From Marmoricola sp. (GTDB lineage Bacteria; Actinomycetota; Actinomycetes; Propionibacteriales; Nocardioidaceae), in NCBI GenBank assembly GCA_025965195.1, contig JAOPXK010000046.1, positions 1-36,068 of the forward strand: a DNA stretch of 36,068 nucleotides, read 5' to 3'. The translations under genes and the position numbers were made by a program. Of the stretch, positions 9,502 to 27,453 are shown piece after piece. Each line of letters opens with the position of its first letter. Position 1 is the stretch's first letter. Under the pieces are notes generated by a model. That model ran no database searches and was not told where the DNA came from. It worked only from the letters and a program-made list of their open reading frames with translations.

Positions 9502-10425
9502 ATGACCAAGCTGACCGCAGCGATCGTCGGGCCGGGCAACATCGGCACCGACCTGATGTACAAGCTGCTCCGTTCCGAGAGCATCGAGCCGCGCTGGATG
9601 ATCGGCGTCGATCCCGACAGCCCGGGGCTGGGGCGCGCTCGAGACAACGGCCTGGTCGCCAGCCATGAGGGCGTCGACTGGCTGCTCAAGCAGGACGAGC
9701 TCCCCGACCTGATCTTCGAGGCGACCAGCGCCTACATCCACCGTGAGTACGCCCCCCGCTACCAGGAGGCCGGCATCCGCGCCGTCGACCTGACGCCGGC
9801 GGCCGTGGGTCCCGCGGTCATCCCGGCGGTCAACGGCAACGAACATGCCGGTGCGGTGAACGTCAACATGATCACCTGCGGCGGTCAGGCAACGATCCCG
9901 ATGGTGGCCGCGGTCTCGCGCGTCACGCCGGTGTCGTACGCCGAGATCGTTGCGTCGGTTGCCTCGTTGAGCGCCGGACCCGGTACCCGGCAGAACATCG
10001 ACGAGTTCACCCGCACCACCTCGCGCGGCGTGGAGACGATCGGTGGCGCCGAGCGCGGCAAGGCGATCATCATCCTGAACCCCGCCGACCCGCCGATGAT
10101 CATGCGCGACACGATCTTCTGCGCCGTTGCGCCCGATCTCTACGACACGGGCCAGGACGCGATCACCGAGTCGATTCATCAGATGGTCGCGGCCGTTCAG
10201 TCCTATGTGCCCGGCTATCGGCTGCTGCAGGATCCCCAGTTCGACCCGCCGTCAGCGGCGACGCTGGGCAATACGAAGGTGTCGATCTTCGTCGAGGTCG
10301 AGGGCGCGGGCGACTTCCTGCCGCCGTACGCCGGGAACCTCGACATCATGACCGCTGCGGCGACGCGCGCGGGCGAAGGGATGGCCTCGACAAGCTCGAC
10401 CTCCGGTAAGGGAGAAGCGAAGTGA
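9502..10425 (+). CDS. hsaG: Acylating acetaldehyde/propanal dehydrogenase
   Basis: HsaG oxidises propanal (or acetaldehyde) made by HsaF to the acyl-CoA with NAD+ and CoA, and works in a channelling complex with HsaF. The N-terminal Rossmann motif is [18 protein letters not shown]. The catalytic cysteine lies in [12 protein letters not shown] (about residue 127). The protein is 307 residues long. The start at ATG 9502 is fixed by GGAGGATTC immediately upstream. The C-terminus after the conserved part ([12 protein letters not shown]) is encoded by a REP-like element. The stop overlaps the GTG of hsaF by 4 nt. Confidence 0.95.
10383..10406 (+). repeat. REP-like element forming the hsaG C-terminus
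   Basis: The core CCTCGACAAGCTCGACCTCCGG matches the 1906 and 2525 copies with few differences. It is translated as STSSTSG at the end of HsaG, just before the hsaF ribosome binding site (GGGAGAAG). Confidence 0.75.
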
Positions 10426-22383: not shown

Positions 22384-23363
22384 CAGCGCTCTCCGGTCAG
22401 GGCGGCGAGGACTCGGCCGCGGTGGTACGCCGGGGTGCCCCATGCCGCGACCAGTGCCCGGACCTTGGTGATCCAGAGGCTCAGGTCGAACTCGGCGGTG
22501 TAGCCGATCGCACCATGCACCTGGAGACCGGTCCGAGCTGCGAGGTACGCCGCTTCGGCGACCGCGACCTTGGCAGCCGAGACGTCGCGCGCACGGTCCG
22601 GCGAGTCGATGGTCAGCGCCGCACCCTGGATCAGCGGGCGCGCGAAGTCCAGCGCGATCCGTACGTCGGCAAGGTGATGCTTGATCGCCTGGTAGGACCC
22701 GATCTCGCGACCGAACTGCTTGCGCTGCTTGACGTAGCTGACCGAGTCCGCGAGAAGCCGTTCGCCACAGCCGAGGAGCTGGGCCGATGTGGCCAGCACC
22801 GCCAGGTCGAACGCCCGGTCGGTGGTCGGCTGCCCCCCGGTGGTCGGCTGCCCCCCGGTGGTCGAGCTTGTCGAGACCACTTCGAACAGACGCCGGGTCG
22901 GGTCCACCGAGCGGTGCCGAGCTCCCGTTGTCGCTCCTCGCATGACACCGTCAACGACGACGTACACCTGCTCCGCGACGTCTGCGTCGAGCGCGTAGGG
23001 AACGTGCGGGGGAGCACAGACCGTCCCGATCCCGCCCGCGGCGAGGGCGCCGACGGCCTCGTCGGACCCGAGCGCGACCGGCAGGAAGACCGCGGACTCG
23101 ACCCAGGGGCCGGGCACAGCGTGACGACCCAGCTGCTCGAACCCGACGACCATGTCGATCGGCTCGGCGCCCGCGCCGCCCTGGGCCTCCTCGGTGAGCA
23201 AGGCGTTGACGCCGAGGCCGGCAAGCTGCTTCCACAGCGCGAGTCCCGGACCGGTGTCGTCGACGGACCAGGCTCGCGCGACGGCCGAAGCATCGGAGGA
23301 GGAGAGGAGCTTGTCGATCGCGGCCGCGAAGCCGGTCTGCTCGTCGGTCAGCTCGAACCTCAT
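22383..23363 (-). CDS. fadE32: Acyl-CoA dehydrogenase, FadE32-like subunit
   Basis: This 326-residue short ACAD begins MRFELTDEQTGFAAAIDKLL and continues with the conserved C-terminal helices (VKQRKQFGREIGSYQAIKHH; GLQVHGAIGYTAEFDLSLWI). It occupies the position of FadE32 (Rv3563). Residues about 162-181 (STSSTT then GGQPTT twice) are not family sequence: they are encoded by a REP-like element plus an 18-bp tandem duplication between the middle and C-terminal domains. The insertion is in frame and lies in a linker, so activity is probably kept. It is coupled by short overlaps to both neighbours. Confidence 0.88.
   Translation of the reverse strand: MRFELTDEQTGFAAAIDKLLSSSDASAVARAWSVDDTGPGLALWKQLAGLGVNALLTEEAQGGAGAEPIDMVVGFEQLGRHAVPGPWVESAVFLPVALGSDEAVGALAAGGIGTVCAPPHVPYALDADVAEQVYVVVDGVMRGATTGARHRSVDPTRRLFEVVSTSSTTGGQPTTGGQPTTDRAFDLAVLATSAQLLGCGERLLADSVSYVKQRKQFGREIGSYQAIKHHLADVRIALDFARPLIQGAALTIDSPDRARDVSAAKVAVAEAAYLAARTGLQVHGAIGYTAEFDLSLWITKVRALVAAWGTPAYHRGRVLAALTGER
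22821..22856 (-). repeat. 18-bp tandem duplication inside fadE32
   Basis: Two perfect copies of GGTGGTCGGCTGCCCCCC lie directly next to the REP-like element. The GGTGGTCG start of each copy equals the left end of the REP, so the duplication probably arose by slippage from it. The period of 18 keeps the frame. Confidence 0.9.
22855..22878 (-). repeat. REP-like element inside fadE32
   Basis: The sequence CCGGTGGTCGAGCTTGTCGAG with a trailing ACC is the reverse complement of the imuB-type copy. On the minus strand it reads VSTSSTTG, the same peptide as in the fadD3 N-terminus. Confidence 0.85.
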
Positions 23364-24526
23364 CGCTGCACCATCTTCTGGACCACCTTCGGCTCGCGGG
23401 GGAGTCCGAGGATCCGCTCGGCGACGATGTTGCGCTGGATCTCGTTGGTGCCGGCGTAGATCGGGCCGGCCAGCGAGAAGAGATAGCCGTCGGTCCAGGT
23501 CGACTCGACCTCGGACTCCGGTCCGAGCAGGTCGAGCGCGGTCTCGTGCAAGGAGATGTCGAGCTCGGACCAGAACACCTTGTTGACGGAGCCGGCCGCA
23601 CCCATCTCGCCGCCATCGGCGAGTCGGGTGACCGTGCCCCAGGTGTAGAGCCGGTAGGCCTGGGCCTTCACCCACGCGTCGACGACACCGTCCCACGACT
23701 CGGGATGGTCGGCGCCGCGCTCCTTCCAGAGCTCGACGAGCCGGTCGGCGGCCGCGCAGAAGCGGCCCGGGGAGCGAAGTGACAGGCCGCGCTCGTTGCC
23801 CGCCGTACTCATTGCGACGCGCCAGCCGTCACCCGGCGCTCCGAGGACGTCGGCGTCGGGAACGAAGACGTCCTCGAAGAAGATCTCGGCGAAGCCGGCC
23901 TCGCCGTCGAGCTGCGCGATCGGCCGGACGGTGATGCCGGCGGAATCCAGCGGGAACAGGAAGTAGGTCAGGCCGTTGTGTCGCTCGGCCGAGGGGTCGG
24001 AACGGAAGAGCCCGAAGCCGCAGTGCGCGAAGGTGGCTCGCGATGACCAGGTCTTCTGGCCGTTGAGCAGCCAGCCACCGCGTTCGTCGTCGCGCGTCGC
24101 GGTTGACCGGATCGAGGCAAGGTCGCTGCCGGCTTCCGGCTCGGACCAGGCCTGCGCCCAGATCTTCTCGCCGCTCGCCATCGTCGGCAGGTACCGGTCC
24201 TGCTGCTCCCTGGTGCCATGCTCGAAGATGATCGGCGCGAGCAGGAAGATGCCGTTCTGGCTGACCCGCCCGGGCGCGCCGGCGCGGTAGTACTCCTCCT
24301 CGAAGATCACCCATTCGATCAGGGAGGCGCCGCGGCCGTGGTACTCCTCGGGCCAGCTGACGACCGAGTAGCGGGCGTCGGTGAGCCGGGCTTCCCAGTC
24401 CTGGTGAGCCCGGAAGCCGACGGCGGTGTCCATCGAGGGCAGCGGCTCGGCCGGCACGTTTGCCTTGAGCCAGTTGCGCGCCTGGGTCTGGAAGGCCAGC
24501 TCCGCTTCGGAGAAGTCGAGGTTCAT
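23360..24526 (-). CDS. fadE31: Acyl-CoA dehydrogenase, FadE31-like subunit
   Basis: This full-length ACAD of 388 residues follows fadD3 and fits FadE31 (Rv3562). It shows the FAD-binding middle domain (WAQAWSEPEAGSDLASIRST; GGWLLNGQKTWSSRA) and the C-terminal FAD/dimer motif GPIYAGTNEIQRNIVAERIL with LGLPREP. In mycobacteria FadE31 forms heteromeric dehydrogenases with the shorter FadE32 and FadE33, acting late in C/D ring degradation. The start ATG overlaps the fadD3 stop (ATGA), and the stop overlaps the fadE32 ATG. Confidence 0.9.
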   Translation of the reverse strand: MNLDFSEAELAFQTQARNWLKANVPAEPLPSMDTAVGFRAHQDWEARLTDARYSVVSWPEEYHGRGASLIEWVIFEEEYYRAGAPGRVSQNGIFLLAPIIFEHGTREQQDRYLPTMASGEKIWAQAWSEPEAGSDLASIRSTATRDDERGGWLLNGQKTWSSRATFAHCGFGLFRSDPSAERHNGLTYFLFPLDSAGITVRPIAQLDGEAGFAEIFFEDVFVPDADVLGAPGDGWRVAMSTAGNERGLSLRSPGRFCAAADRLVELWKERGADHPESWDGVVDAWVKAQAYRLYTWGTVTRLADGGEMGAAGSVNKVFWSELDISLHETALDLLGPESEVESTWTDGYLFSLAGPIYAGTNEIQRNIVAERILGLPREPKVVQKMVQR

Positions 24527-26178
24527 TCCGCAGACTCCGGTTCCTGAGCTTGTCGAAGGGCAGTCTTGAGCACCTTGCCGGAAAGATTCCGGGGGAGTAC
24601 GTCGACGAAGGCGATCTCGCGGGGCACCTTGAAGTTCGCCAGCCGTTCCTTGCAGAACGCGATCACGTCCGCCGCGGTCAGGCTTCCCGGCGTCGCGACC
24701 ACGACGTACGCCTTGCCGACCTCGCCCATCCGGTCATCGGGCACGCCGATGACCGCGCACTCGACGACACCGTCGAGCCGGGCGATCGTCTGCTCCACCT
24801 CGGCGGGATAGACGTTGAAGCCGCCCGAGATGTACATGTCCTTGAGCCGGTCGGTGATGGCCAGGTTGCCACCGGCGTCCAGCGTGCCGATGTCACCGGT
24901 GTGCAGCCAGCCGTCGCTGTCGATCGCCTCGGCGGTGGCGGCCTCGTCGTCGAGGTAGCCGAGCATGACGAACTCGCCGCGGAGCAGCAGCTCGCCTTCC
25001 TCCCCGGCAGCGAGCGCGGCGTTGGTCCCGGGCGCTGCGATCCGTGCCTCCATGCCCGGAATCGCGCGGCCACAGGTGGTGGCGACGAGCTCGGCGGCGT
25101 CCCCGGGACGGCACATCGTCGCGACCACCGCCTCGGTCATCCCGAAGGCCGTGACCACGTTGTCGATCTGGAGGTCGTCCCGCATCCGCTCGATGAGGAC
25201 GACAGGCACCACGGCCGCGCCCGTCACGGCAAGCCGCAGCGAGGACAGGTCCCGTGCGGAACGGCCAGGAGCGGCCAGCAGGGACTGGTAGATCGTCGGC
25301 GCACCCGGAAGCACACTGATCCGCTCGGCCTCGATCAGCGTCATCGTCGCGTCGAGGTCGAAGGTCGCGAGCGGGTAGAGCGTGGCGCCGGTCAGCAGCC
25401 CGACGACGATGCCGGCCTTGTAGCCGAACGAGTGGAAGAACGGGTTGACCACCAGGTAGCGGTCGGCACTCGTGAGGCCACCGAGGCTTCCCCAGGCAGC
25501 GGCAACGCCGACGGTCTGCCGGTGCGCGCTCATCGCGCCCTTGGACCGGCCGGTCGTCCCCGAGGTGAACAGGATGTCGGCGACGTCATCGGCGCAGACG
25601 GCGTCTGCACGAGCCTCGACCTCGGCCTCGCTGACCCCCGTCCCCAGCTCTCCGAAGTCGATAGTCCGAGACGTTCTGGCCCCGGAATCGGCACTCTGAG
25701 GGCCAGAACGTCTCGGACTATCCGGGCTGGAGAGTCGGATCAGGGCTTGCACGGAGGGGAGGGTGGAGGCGGCGGTCAGGTCGGCAATCTGGGTGCGGCC
25801 GAGGAAGCCGTCGTCGACGACGACCACGGTGGCGCGGGTGCGGTCCACGATGTCCGCGACCTCGTGGCCCGTGTAGCGGCTGTTGACGGGCACCAGGACG
25901 GCGCCGGCGTAGGACACGGCGAGGCCTGCGATCACCCAGTCGATGCTGTTGGGCGCCCAGACCACGACCCGGTCGCCGGGGGAGACGCCAATGCCGGCGT
26001 AGGCCTGGGCGGTACGGCGCACCTGGGTCAGCAGCTCGTTGAAGGACAGCGCGCGGCCACCTTCGACGTACGCCGGATGGTCGCCGAAGCGAGCGGCCGC
26101 AGCCCGGAGGACGCCCGGCAGCGTCCGCGCCCCGGTGGTCGAGCTTGTCGCTTCGGTGGTCGAGCTTGTCGAGACCAA
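24523..26178 (-). CDS. fadD3: HIP-CoA synthetase
   Basis: FadD3 activates HIP, the C/D-ring remnant of steroids, to HIP-CoA, which is also the inducer that releases KstR2. This ANL-family ligase of 551 residues has VADILFTSGTTGRSKGAM (P-loop A3), NPFFHSFGYKAGI, GWLHTGDIG (A7), RLKDMYISGGFNVYPAEVE (A8) and the C-terminal lysine LPRNLSGKVLKTALR. It is clearly closer to Rv3561 than to generic FadDs. Three parts are repeat-derived: the N-terminus (VSTSSTTEATSSTTGA), residues about 153-173 from a perfect inverted repeat, and the C-terminal QAQEPESAE. I place the start at TTG 26178 with GGAG 5 nt upstream. The frame extends to TTG 26202, which would overlap the operator. Confidence 0.92.
   Translation of the reverse strand: MVSTSSTTEATSSTTGARTLPGVLRAAAARFGDHPAYVEGGRALSFNELLTQVRRTAQAYAGIGVSPGDRVVVWAPNSIDWVIAGLAVSYAGAVLVPVNSRYTGHEVADIVDRTRATVVVVDDGFLGRTQIADLTAASTLPSVQALIRLSSPDSPRRSGPQSADSGARTSRTIDFGELGTGVSEAEVEARADAVCADDVADILFTSGTTGRSKGAMSAHRQTVGVAAAWGSLGGLTSADRYLVVNPFFHSFGYKAGIVVGLLTGATLYPLATFDLDATMTLIEAERISVLPGAPTIYQSLLAAPGRSARDLSSLRLAVTGAAVVPVVLIERMRDDLQIDNVVTAFGMTEAVVATMCRPGDAAELVATTCGRAIPGMEARIAAPGTNAALAAGEEGELLLRGEFVMLGYLDDEAATAEAIDSDGWLHTGDIGTLDAGGNLAITDRLKDMYISGGFNVYPAEVEQTIARLDGVVECAVIGVPDDRMGEVGKAYVVVATPGSLTAADVIAFCKERLANFKVPREIAFVDVLPRNLSGKVLKTALRQAQEPESAE
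24543..24560 (-). repeat. REP-like half element at the fadD3 C-terminus
   Basis: CCTGAGCTTGTCGAAGGG is the shorter relative of the repeat family (GAGCTTGTCGA core). It encodes the last residues of FadD3 after the conserved lysine motif. Confidence 0.65.
25660..25722. repeat. Perfect 23-bp inverted repeat inside fadD3
   Basis: The left arm (25660-25682, beginning GATAGTCCGAGACGTTCTGG) and the right arm (25700-25722) are exact reverse complements, separated by a 17-nt loop. The 63-bp unit is exactly 21 codons and adds residues rich in Ser, Arg and Gly to a variable loop of the ligase N-domain. It is unrelated in sequence to the GAGCTTGTCGA repeats. The form suggests a small mobile palindromic element. 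Confidence 0.95.
26132..26150 (-). repeat. REP-like element, first of a pair at the fadD3 N-terminus
   Basis: CCGGTGGTCGAGCTTGTCG is followed 3 nt later by a second copy at 26154. The two are direct repeats with a 21-23 nt spacing. On the minus strand they encode ATSSTTG. Confidence 0.8.
26154..26176 (-). repeat. REP-like element, second of a pair, next to the fadD3 start codon
   Basis: CGGTGGTCGAGCTTGTCGAG with a trailing ACC ends at the proposed TTG start codon. It is read VSTSSTTE in FadD3. Its position between promoter and coding core means that the start codon itself may have been re-created after insertion. Confidence 0.8.
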
Positions 26179-26201
26179 AACCACTCCGTCCAGTGAAACC
26201 A

Positions 26202-26215
26202 AACAAGTGCTTGGT
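26202..26215. promoter_or_regulatory. KstR2-type operator between fadD3 and fadE30
   Basis: AACAAGTGCTTGGT matches the KstR2 motif ANCAAGNNCTTGNT at every fixed position. It lies in the divergent region between fadD3 and fadE30, the place of the main KstR2 site in mycobacteria. TAGGCT (26215-26220), a TANNNT -10 candidate for fadE30, adjoins it, giving an estimated leader of about 48 nt with GAAGGAG before the fadE30 ATG. The kstR2 gene is in the rightward operon, so the site also provides autoregulation. Confidence 0.92.
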
Positions 26216-26274
26216 AGGCTACCTTAACCGGTGGTTGACGAGCCCTGGAATCCCCGAGTGGAAGGAGCCACACG

Positions 26275-27453
26275 ATGGACCTGACCTACTCCACCGAGGA
26301 CGAAGCCTTCCGCAGCGAGGTCCGCACCTGGCTCGAGGACAGCCTGTCCGGCGAGTTCGCGCCACTGCGTGGCCGTGGCGGACCGGGCCGGGAGCACGAG
26401 GCCCACGACGAACGCCTCGAGTGGGACCGCCACCTCGCCAGGCACGGCTGGACCTGCATCGGCTGGCCGACGGAGTACGGCGGCCGCGGGCTGCCGCTCT
26501 TCCGGCAGGTGATCTTTCACGAGGAGTACGCCCGCGCCAACGCGCCGGGCCGCGTCAACCACCTGGGCGAAGAGCTGCTCGGCCCCACCCTGATCGCATT
26601 CGGCAGCGAGGCGCAGAAACAGCGGTTCCTGCCCAGGATCGTCGCCGTTGAGGAGCTGTGGTGCCAGGGGTACTCCGAGCCGGGTGCCGGCTCCGACCTC
26701 GCGAACGTGCAGACCAGGGGCCGGCTCGAGGGTGACCAGTGGGTCGTCGACGGACAGAAGGTCTGGACCTCGCTGGCCCATCACGCCGACTGGTGCTTCG
26801 TGGTGGCGAGGACCGAGCCGGGTTCGCAGCGCCACAGCGGCCTCTCCTACCTGCTCGTCCCGATGCACCAGGACGGTGTCGACGTACGTCCGATCCAGCA
26901 GCTGACCGCCACCTCGGAGTTCAACGAGGTCTTCTTCACCGGCGCCCGCACCGATGCGGACCTGGTCGTCGGTGAGCCCGGCAACGGCTGGGCCGTCGCG
27001 ATGGGCACGCTCGGCTTCGAACGCGGGATCTCGACGGTCGGCCAACAGGTCGGCTTCCAGCGCGAGCTCGCCACCCTGGTCGAGGTGGCCCGGGCCAACG
27101 GGACCTACGACGACCCGGTGATCCGTGACCGGATCGGCAAGGCGACCGTCGACCTCGAGGTGATCCGGCTGAATGCACTCCGGACGCTGTCCGAGGCCCA
27201 GGCGCCCCGGCAGGCGAGCATCTCGAAGCTGCTCTGGGCGAACTGGCACCGGTCGCTGGGCGAGCTCGCCATGCAGATCCGCGGCACCGCATCCCTGACG
27301 GCCGGCGAGGGCTACGACCTCGACGACTGGCAGCGGCTCTTCCTGTTCAGCCGGGCCGACACGATCTACGGCGGCTCCGACGAGATCCAGCGCAACATCC
27401 TTGCCGAGCGCGTGCTCGGCCTTCCCAGAGAAGTCAACAGGGAGCTCCGATGA
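26275..27453 (+). CDS. fadE30: Acyl-CoA dehydrogenase FadE30
   Basis: This 392-residue ACAD starts the rightward KstR2 operon opposite fadD3, the position of FadE30 (Rv3560c). Domains are the N-terminal helices (MDLTYSTEDEAFRSEVRTWL), the FAD-binding beta domain (LWCQGYSEPGAGSDLANVQT; WVVDGQKVWTSLAHHADW), and the C-terminal domain with TIYGGSDEIQRNILAERVL then GLPRE. In mycobacteria FadE30 acts early on the HIP-CoA side chain, making the unsaturated acyl-CoA. GAAGGAG precedes the ATG. The stop overlaps the ipdF ATG by 4 nt. Confidence 0.92.
   Translation: MDLTYSTEDEAFRSEVRTWLEDSLSGEFAPLRGRGGPGREHEAHDERLEWDRHLARHGWTCIGWPTEYGGRGLPLFRQVIFHEEYARANAPGRVNHLGEELLGPTLIAFGSEAQKQRFLPRIVAVEELWCQGYSEPGAGSDLANVQTRGRLEGDQWVVDGQKVWTSLAHHADWCFVVARTEPGSQRHSGLSYLLVPMHQDGVDVRPIQQLTATSEFNEVFFTGARTDADLVVGEPGNGWAVAMGTLGFERGISTVGQQVGFQRELATLVEVARANGTYDDPVIRDRIGKATVDLEVIRLNALRTLSEAQAPRQASISKLLWANWHRSLGELAMQIRGTASLTAGEGYDLDDWQRLFLFSRADTIYGGSDEIQRNILAERVLGLPREVNRELR

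Follow-up and report, generated by a model that had tools for sequence, protein, structure and literature searches.

Small palindromic elements dispersed in Marmoricola and its relatives and their association with genes for a putatively AbiEi-like protein

REP and REPIN repeats are explained by RAYT (TnpAREP) proteins, which are thought to nick or cut REPs, leading to occasional copying to new sites; for other palindromic families, we know of no partner. REPtrons with TnpAREP show inverted arms, a diverse spacer, dispersed copies and a stable locus, all of which recur in the elements reported here (PMC6006769, PMC8049555; see also PMC3733652). In the same accounts, the gene is flanked by its own repeat type and each paralogue has a repeat family of its own. 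REPs usually number more than 100 copies (PMC2817692), compared to 30 in our genome.

The target of AbiEi is a pair of 23-bp inverted repeats with 3 bp between them, and that of Rv2827c a similar pair with a spacing of 13 bp (PMC7319586). Our system likewise brings together a gene with a putative AbiEi-like region and paired 23-bp inverted repeats beside it, the arms here lying 17 bp apart; this likeness is taken as a lead. Unlike AbiEi and Rv2827c, our protein has a putative extra nuclease-like domain, and the palindrome is also found downstream of the gene and genome-wide.

Rickettsia palindromic elements share with ours the translation of palindromes in frame within unrelated genes, and CGTC-tagged REPs share the lack of a known dedicated transposase (PMC10969869, PMC3733652). 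The former are about 150 bp long versus 63–64 bp here, a comparison made by description and not by sequence, and both groups belong to other phyla, the main text of PMC3733652 containing neither the word “actinobacteria” nor any of five actinobacterial name stems. Like a classical MITE, the element is short, non-autonomous and equipped with inverted arms, but the associated gene has a complete palindrome on either side, where a MITE would have a single terminal repeat, and no parent insertion sequence was noticed, the systematic search having covered Y1 only. Our search of the open-access literature, with subscription journals mostly outside its scope, turned up no paper that describes palindromes of this kind from Nocardioides or that links AbiEi-DUF559 proteins to palindromes.

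The palindrome in fadD3 and its family

The window, i.e., the whole analysed stretch of 36,068 nucleotides from Marmoricola sp., carries at 25660..25722 a palindromic element of 63 bp, here named type A, which, like its loop, has no strand assignment. The exact 23-bp inverted repeat described by the first-pass annotation was confirmed, with arms 100% complementary and 17 nt between them. The left arm (25660..25682, plus strand) comprises an outer stem of 14 nt (25660-25673), a box of 3 nt (25674-25676) and an inner stem of 6 nt (25677-25682), followed by the loop of 17 nt (25683..25699), which is not common to other copies, and by the right arm (25700..25722, minus strand) with its inner stem (25700-25705), box (25706-25708) and outer stem (25709-25722). 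Nine 15-nt inverted seeds (loop up to 100) were counted in the window, the yield expected from one 23-nt arm pair, versus 0 in each of 20 dinucleotide shuffles. The 63-bp unit had been said to have no kinship with the other repeats of the window, and indeed no second match to its arms was found there at 0 or 1 mismatch. One such other repeat, GGTCGAGCTTGTCGAGACC, occurs at six places with up to two mismatches, three of them exact, versus 0 expected (1906-1924, 10383-10401, 22860-22878, 26158-26176 and two weaker places).

The host gene, fadD3 (24523..26202, minus strand), encodes an acyl-CoA ligase of 559 aa that scored above the NCBIfam cut-off for the FadD3 family (696 vs 657 bits). As had been claimed, the repeat is translated in frame, its 21 codons forming residues 161-181. 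In an alignment with 15 homologues from 14 genomes of the genus (61–71% identical, loci below 61% being left out), a check that the annotation had proposed, the 21-residue peptide was absent from all 15; over our residues 150-215, every homologue is 7–25 residues shorter, eight of them by 18–21. The stretch is a length-variable linker immediately ahead of the conserved DDVADILFTSG motif, and because its length varies across the FadD3 family, an exact empty site is unreadable; judged by this alignment, the copy is likely an insertion. One FadD3 homologue (L124) has a palindrome by a loose criterion somewhere within its ORF. The very stable RNA fold anticipated for the element was borne out by prediction (-53.1 kcal/mol, z -8.0). 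A known Rfam RNA was ruled out, since a search of 25400-26300 gave no match at gathering score and five sub-threshold ones, the best with 31.5 vs 94 bits.

Searching the source genome for the unit, as the annotation had suggested, revealed 30 elements of the same general form, 16 of type A, including the fadD3 copy, and 14 of type B, found by a looser exact pattern (reversed-pattern control 0), so that a unique coding palindrome, whose single occurrence the annotation had named as part of its refuting case, was ruled out. With the fadD3 element as query, 16 places were found. These are the type A copies, and each contains both ATAGTCCGAGACG and the complementary sequence with zero mismatch, followed by a 3-nt box and the inner stem TGGCCC/GGGCCA with few departures, and a loop of 18 nt, or 17 nt in five copies, giving elements of 63–64 bp. 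The exact 13-mer of the type A arm occurs 32 times in the genome, always within the 16 elements, and hence, unlike in REPs, no lone exact arm exists; five places have one mismatch (control 3), of which three belong to type B elements as their arms and two stand alone. The box is usually non-complementary and pairs in 33% of cells, the type A structure overall pairs less than all 500 shuffles, and the fadD3 copy, with its perfect 23-bp repeat, is the only one of the 16 with a fully symmetric stem. Type B arms read CCGCCACG, in a few cases CCGACACG, and their inner parts are non-complementary in some copies. A self-folding REP hairpin in each arm was considered by eye and rejected, being true of some arms only. 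The exact type A arm pattern had no match in a collection of genome contigs from which records near the window were possibly excluded.

Context was read for 29 of our 30 elements (C168:15933 was left out of this count and of the arm-match count) and for 70 in relatives, by means of a home-made simple gene caller checked on the window. Ours are convergent in 13 cases, tandem in ten, divergent in one, inside ORFs in four and at a contig edge in one. A gene 3' end lies within 20 nt of 21 of our 24 intergenic elements, seven of which supply the TAG stop, and a start within 20 nt of none; for the 59 intergenic elements of relatives, the corresponding numbers are 41, 15 and five. The four genes with an in-frame element are fadD3 and the CoxE-like, AllC-like and XdhC-like genes, in line with the earlier suggestion of a small palindromic unit that can enter genes without breaking them. 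All three frames are used by the in-frame copies, and those in which the TAG would act as a stop have TAC in its place.

At several loci, the flanking genes are common to different species, in a comparison that left out eight retrieved loci with no element by the pattern used, and elements within ORFs recur at identical or almost identical codon positions: in XdhC of our genome and G011, in the CoxE-like gene of our genome, G009 and G011, in the CofGH linker of G016 and G001 (four codons off in G009), and in one more gene of G009 and G013, with arms of the species' own type at these shared codons. Judged by eye, AllC of G011 may retain a degraded trace of an element where ours is inserted. The exactness of the arms had been read as a sign of recent insertion, which our data do not support: all 16 type A copies share invariant 14-nt outer arms while their loops differ, and several elements occupy orthologous positions elsewhere, so exact arms are no sign of recency. 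Related loops were found for 11 of 45 pairs of copies in G013 and for six of 91 in G003 (shuffle means 0), indicating copying in these two genomes, and for no pair in G009, G016, G017, G006 and G050. In our own genome, hardly any loops are related to each other (2 of 325 pairs versus a shuffle mean of 0.05); the family therefore looks old, with arms under selection. Among the genomes compared, no movement was seen, neither as a clean empty site nor as a target duplication or strain polymorphism, and since several elements are old and fixed, movement must be rare.

A covariance model of our 16 copies matched at least 21 of 98 related genomes, all of the same bacterial family, when the best 50 candidates per genome were scored, and the element pattern matched 14 of the 98; some genomes of the genus, e.g., G002, G007, G012 and G015, have no elements. 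Stem sequence varies by species with pairing kept: when 22 elements of other loci were taken in both orientations and aligned to the covariance model, 161 cells were changed on both sides of a pair, versus 44 in shuffles. In G014, nine of the 13 dispersed elements have two mismatches between the outer arms.

A protein family bracketed by the palindromes

No Y1 transposase (PF01797) was detected in our genome, and the five of 98 relatives with a match are all element-negative, by pattern and by model. A RAYT-driven REPIN was therefore rejected, as no element-bearing genome has a Y1/RAYT transposase. Comparison of 461 proteins encoded near elements disclosed one family, here called geneX, that recurs beside elements in six genomes (7/7 adjacent). 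Our genome has two members, both outside the window: X1 (contig C90:8522-9514), flanked by two type A elements, and X2 (contig C88:17161-18069), which adjoins a type B element.

As geneX was first noticed through recurring beside elements, the scans of 23 and 69 loci are the real test, although the latter set shares at least the records L255, L260 and L272 with the discovery set. The first revealed palindromes on both sides of geneX in six loci, on one side in five and none near in 12. Among the 69 loci, from Nocardioides, Marmoricola and relatives, palindromes within 400 bp stand on both sides in 37, on one side in 16 and on neither in 16, similar to the flanking of a REPtron gene by its own repeats (PMC6006769, PMC8049555), with another protein as partner here. 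Near geneX, their density is 1.70/kb (91 in 53,430 bp, of which about 4 are expected as background) versus 0.077/kb elsewhere in the same loci, i.e., 22-fold higher. In 42 of 43 loci, 7–141 nt separate the end of the upstream palindrome from the start codon, and a downstream one is present in 43 of the 65 loci with an ORF. Upstream and downstream arms agree at 19.3 of 21 positions within a locus and at 11.4 across loci, and the best partner of an arm comes from the same locus in 33 of 37 cases. More distant homologues mostly lack brackets: of 20 further ones (26–46% identical), two have palindromes within 400 bp on both sides and three on one side; five such distant homologues belong to our genome, none with both sides and one with one side occupied.

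Several loci deserve mention in their own right. In five species (L157, L165, L184, L200 and L212), geneX occupies one conserved place between pstB-like ABC and phosphate-transporter-like genes, where it evolves much faster than its neighbours (51–62% vs about 90% identity). The geneX locus of G050 (L324) has two near-identical tandem palindromes upstream with almost the same loop, looking like a local duplication. The closest geneX matches in G008 (L252/L318) and G014 (L253/L317), genomes with 13 dispersed elements each, consist of two pieces, as if broken. The geneX-like genes of other genera (L333, L343, L334, L328 and L339) have bracketing palindromes with quite different arms. In a phage set, geneX was found in 0 records, and in plasmids as one weak match.

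Two PADLOC models of AbiEi matched the geneX proteins at E ≤ 0.1, PDLC02249 in 43 of 55 (best 1.3e-12) and PDLC02228 in 39 of 55 (best 5.8e-15); our X2 matches an AbiEi model with 2.3e-6, and X1 has no AbiEi match at this threshold. Pfam gave weak matches to DUF559 in three of 55 (best 0.0013) and to MTES_1575 in one, and E220, D254, H271 and D280 are each kept in 54. From these sequences, together with motifs that we take to be those of such nucleases, the protein appears to combine an AbiEi-like region with a C-terminus weakly resembling DUF559/PD-(D/E)XK nucleases. A sequence search of solved structures yielded no close match (one at E 0.17). Unlike in AbiE, no AbiEii toxin was matched in the eight neighbour proteins scanned from four geneX loci.

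Dispersed elements of ten genomes best match the geneX arms of their own genome in 82.5 of 101 cases (chance 10.1), a value reached by 0 of 5000 permutations, the best of which gave 72.5; matching required the start TA[GC]TC and at most three mismatches in 12, and similar arms were favoured because many loci had been chosen among the highest-scoring matches to a model of our own copies. The fit was poorest for G003 (6.5 of 14), whose elements were confused with those of G009, and next for G011 (14 of 21). In our genome, where 26 of the 27 non-bracket elements were covered, type A goes with X1 (13/13) and type B with X2 (13/13), like the paralogue-specific repeat families of REPtrons (PMC6006769, PMC8049555). 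Arm distance tracks geneX distance (Mantel r 0.39–0.57, 48 loci, 0 of 2000 permutations), most strongly for residues 113-212 (partial r 0.31); these correlations still contain phylogeny, and the domain borders are of our own drawing.

Co-occurrence across genomes is mixed. One same-genus pair supports it (G050 with 25 elements and geneX at 3e-132, G028 with 0 and 8e-13), another contradicts it (G035 with 0 elements and geneX at 4e-87, G056 with two and 1e-53), and the comparison of G041 with G058 speaks for neither side. G046, G040 and G045 have good geneX matches and no TAGTC-type element, and in G002, G012, G015 and G020 geneX-like genes are present and elements absent. The prediction that the geneX palindrome of G020 would have dispersed copies, and that its arm pattern would turn up in further element-free genomes, failed, the pattern occurring at one place only in 15 genomes.

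Possible explanations and their meaning

The element family itself and its association with geneX are strongly established, and the two together point to a small repeat system of a kind not described before. The reading we favour, with a probability of roughly 58%, is a system that resembles a REPtron but has an unrelated protein as partner: the fadD3 repeat would belong to a dispersed set of two-arm elements, with geneX as their partner. It would work like a REPtron yet not be one, because the defining transposase is absent from element-bearing genomes; the putative partner appears AbiEi-like and weakly DUF559-like, and is no Y1 HUH protein. By analogy with AbiEi, the geneX protein would bind the two inverted arms of about 23 bp, and its nuclease-like part would, by analogy with TnpAREP, nick or cut the palindrome, leading to occasional copying to new sites. 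A copy that lies at the 3' end of a gene, or in a loop of a protein that is variable anyway, would be tolerated, and the arms would stay exact because recognition is still needed, whereas loops drift; the fadD3 copy would then be a lineage-specific insertion in a length-variable linker. More tentatively, and with the odds somewhat against it, short palindromes may be both recognised and copied by a DNA-binding nuclease of AbiEi descent in place of an HUH transposase, with arms and protein changing in concert, and a given codon of a given gene would then carry different arms in different species.

A regulatory network, in which geneX would be an AbiEi-type autoregulator and no mobiliser, the palindromes being binding sites whose dispersed copies are kept for an effect of binding such as a transcription stop or DNA folding, seems to us rather unlikely, though it is the likeliest of the alternatives. 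The promoters of AbiEi and Rv2827c contain paired 23-bp inverted repeats to which these proteins themselves bind (PMC7319586), and the upstream palindrome nearly always ends shortly before the geneX start; arms conserved at fixed positions with drifting loops would fit as well. This reading sits poorly with the second palindrome 3' of geneX in two-thirds of the loci, with dispersed copies that mostly lie at 3' ends and not in promoters, and with the related loops in G013 and G003, which suggest copying.

We consider it improbable that the elements serve only to end transcription or to form hairpins at mRNA 3' ends, with selection acting on structure and geneX being incidental. The nearness of 3' ends in our own and other genomes, the predicted RNA hairpin and the compensated stem changes would all suit such a role, but structure alone does not require exact genome-specific arms or their match to the geneX bracket, and the inner arms are non-complementary in some type B elements. 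A shade more improbable still is that some other transposase moves the elements, which would then be ordinary MITEs or palindromic elements of the Rickettsia kind, with geneX as cargo or bystander; this would account for in-frame copies in genes and for repeat dispersal, but not for the 22-fold density of palindromes at geneX, nor for arms that match geneX by genome and by paralogue.

Proteins of the AbiEi/DUF559 type are common in actinobacteria and, to our knowledge, lack an explanation there. Should geneX prove to be the partner of these elements, such proteins would gain a testable role, and coevolution of arms and protein could be tested in species with two or three geneX paralogues. Repeat systems of REPtron shape would then have arisen with an unrelated protein.
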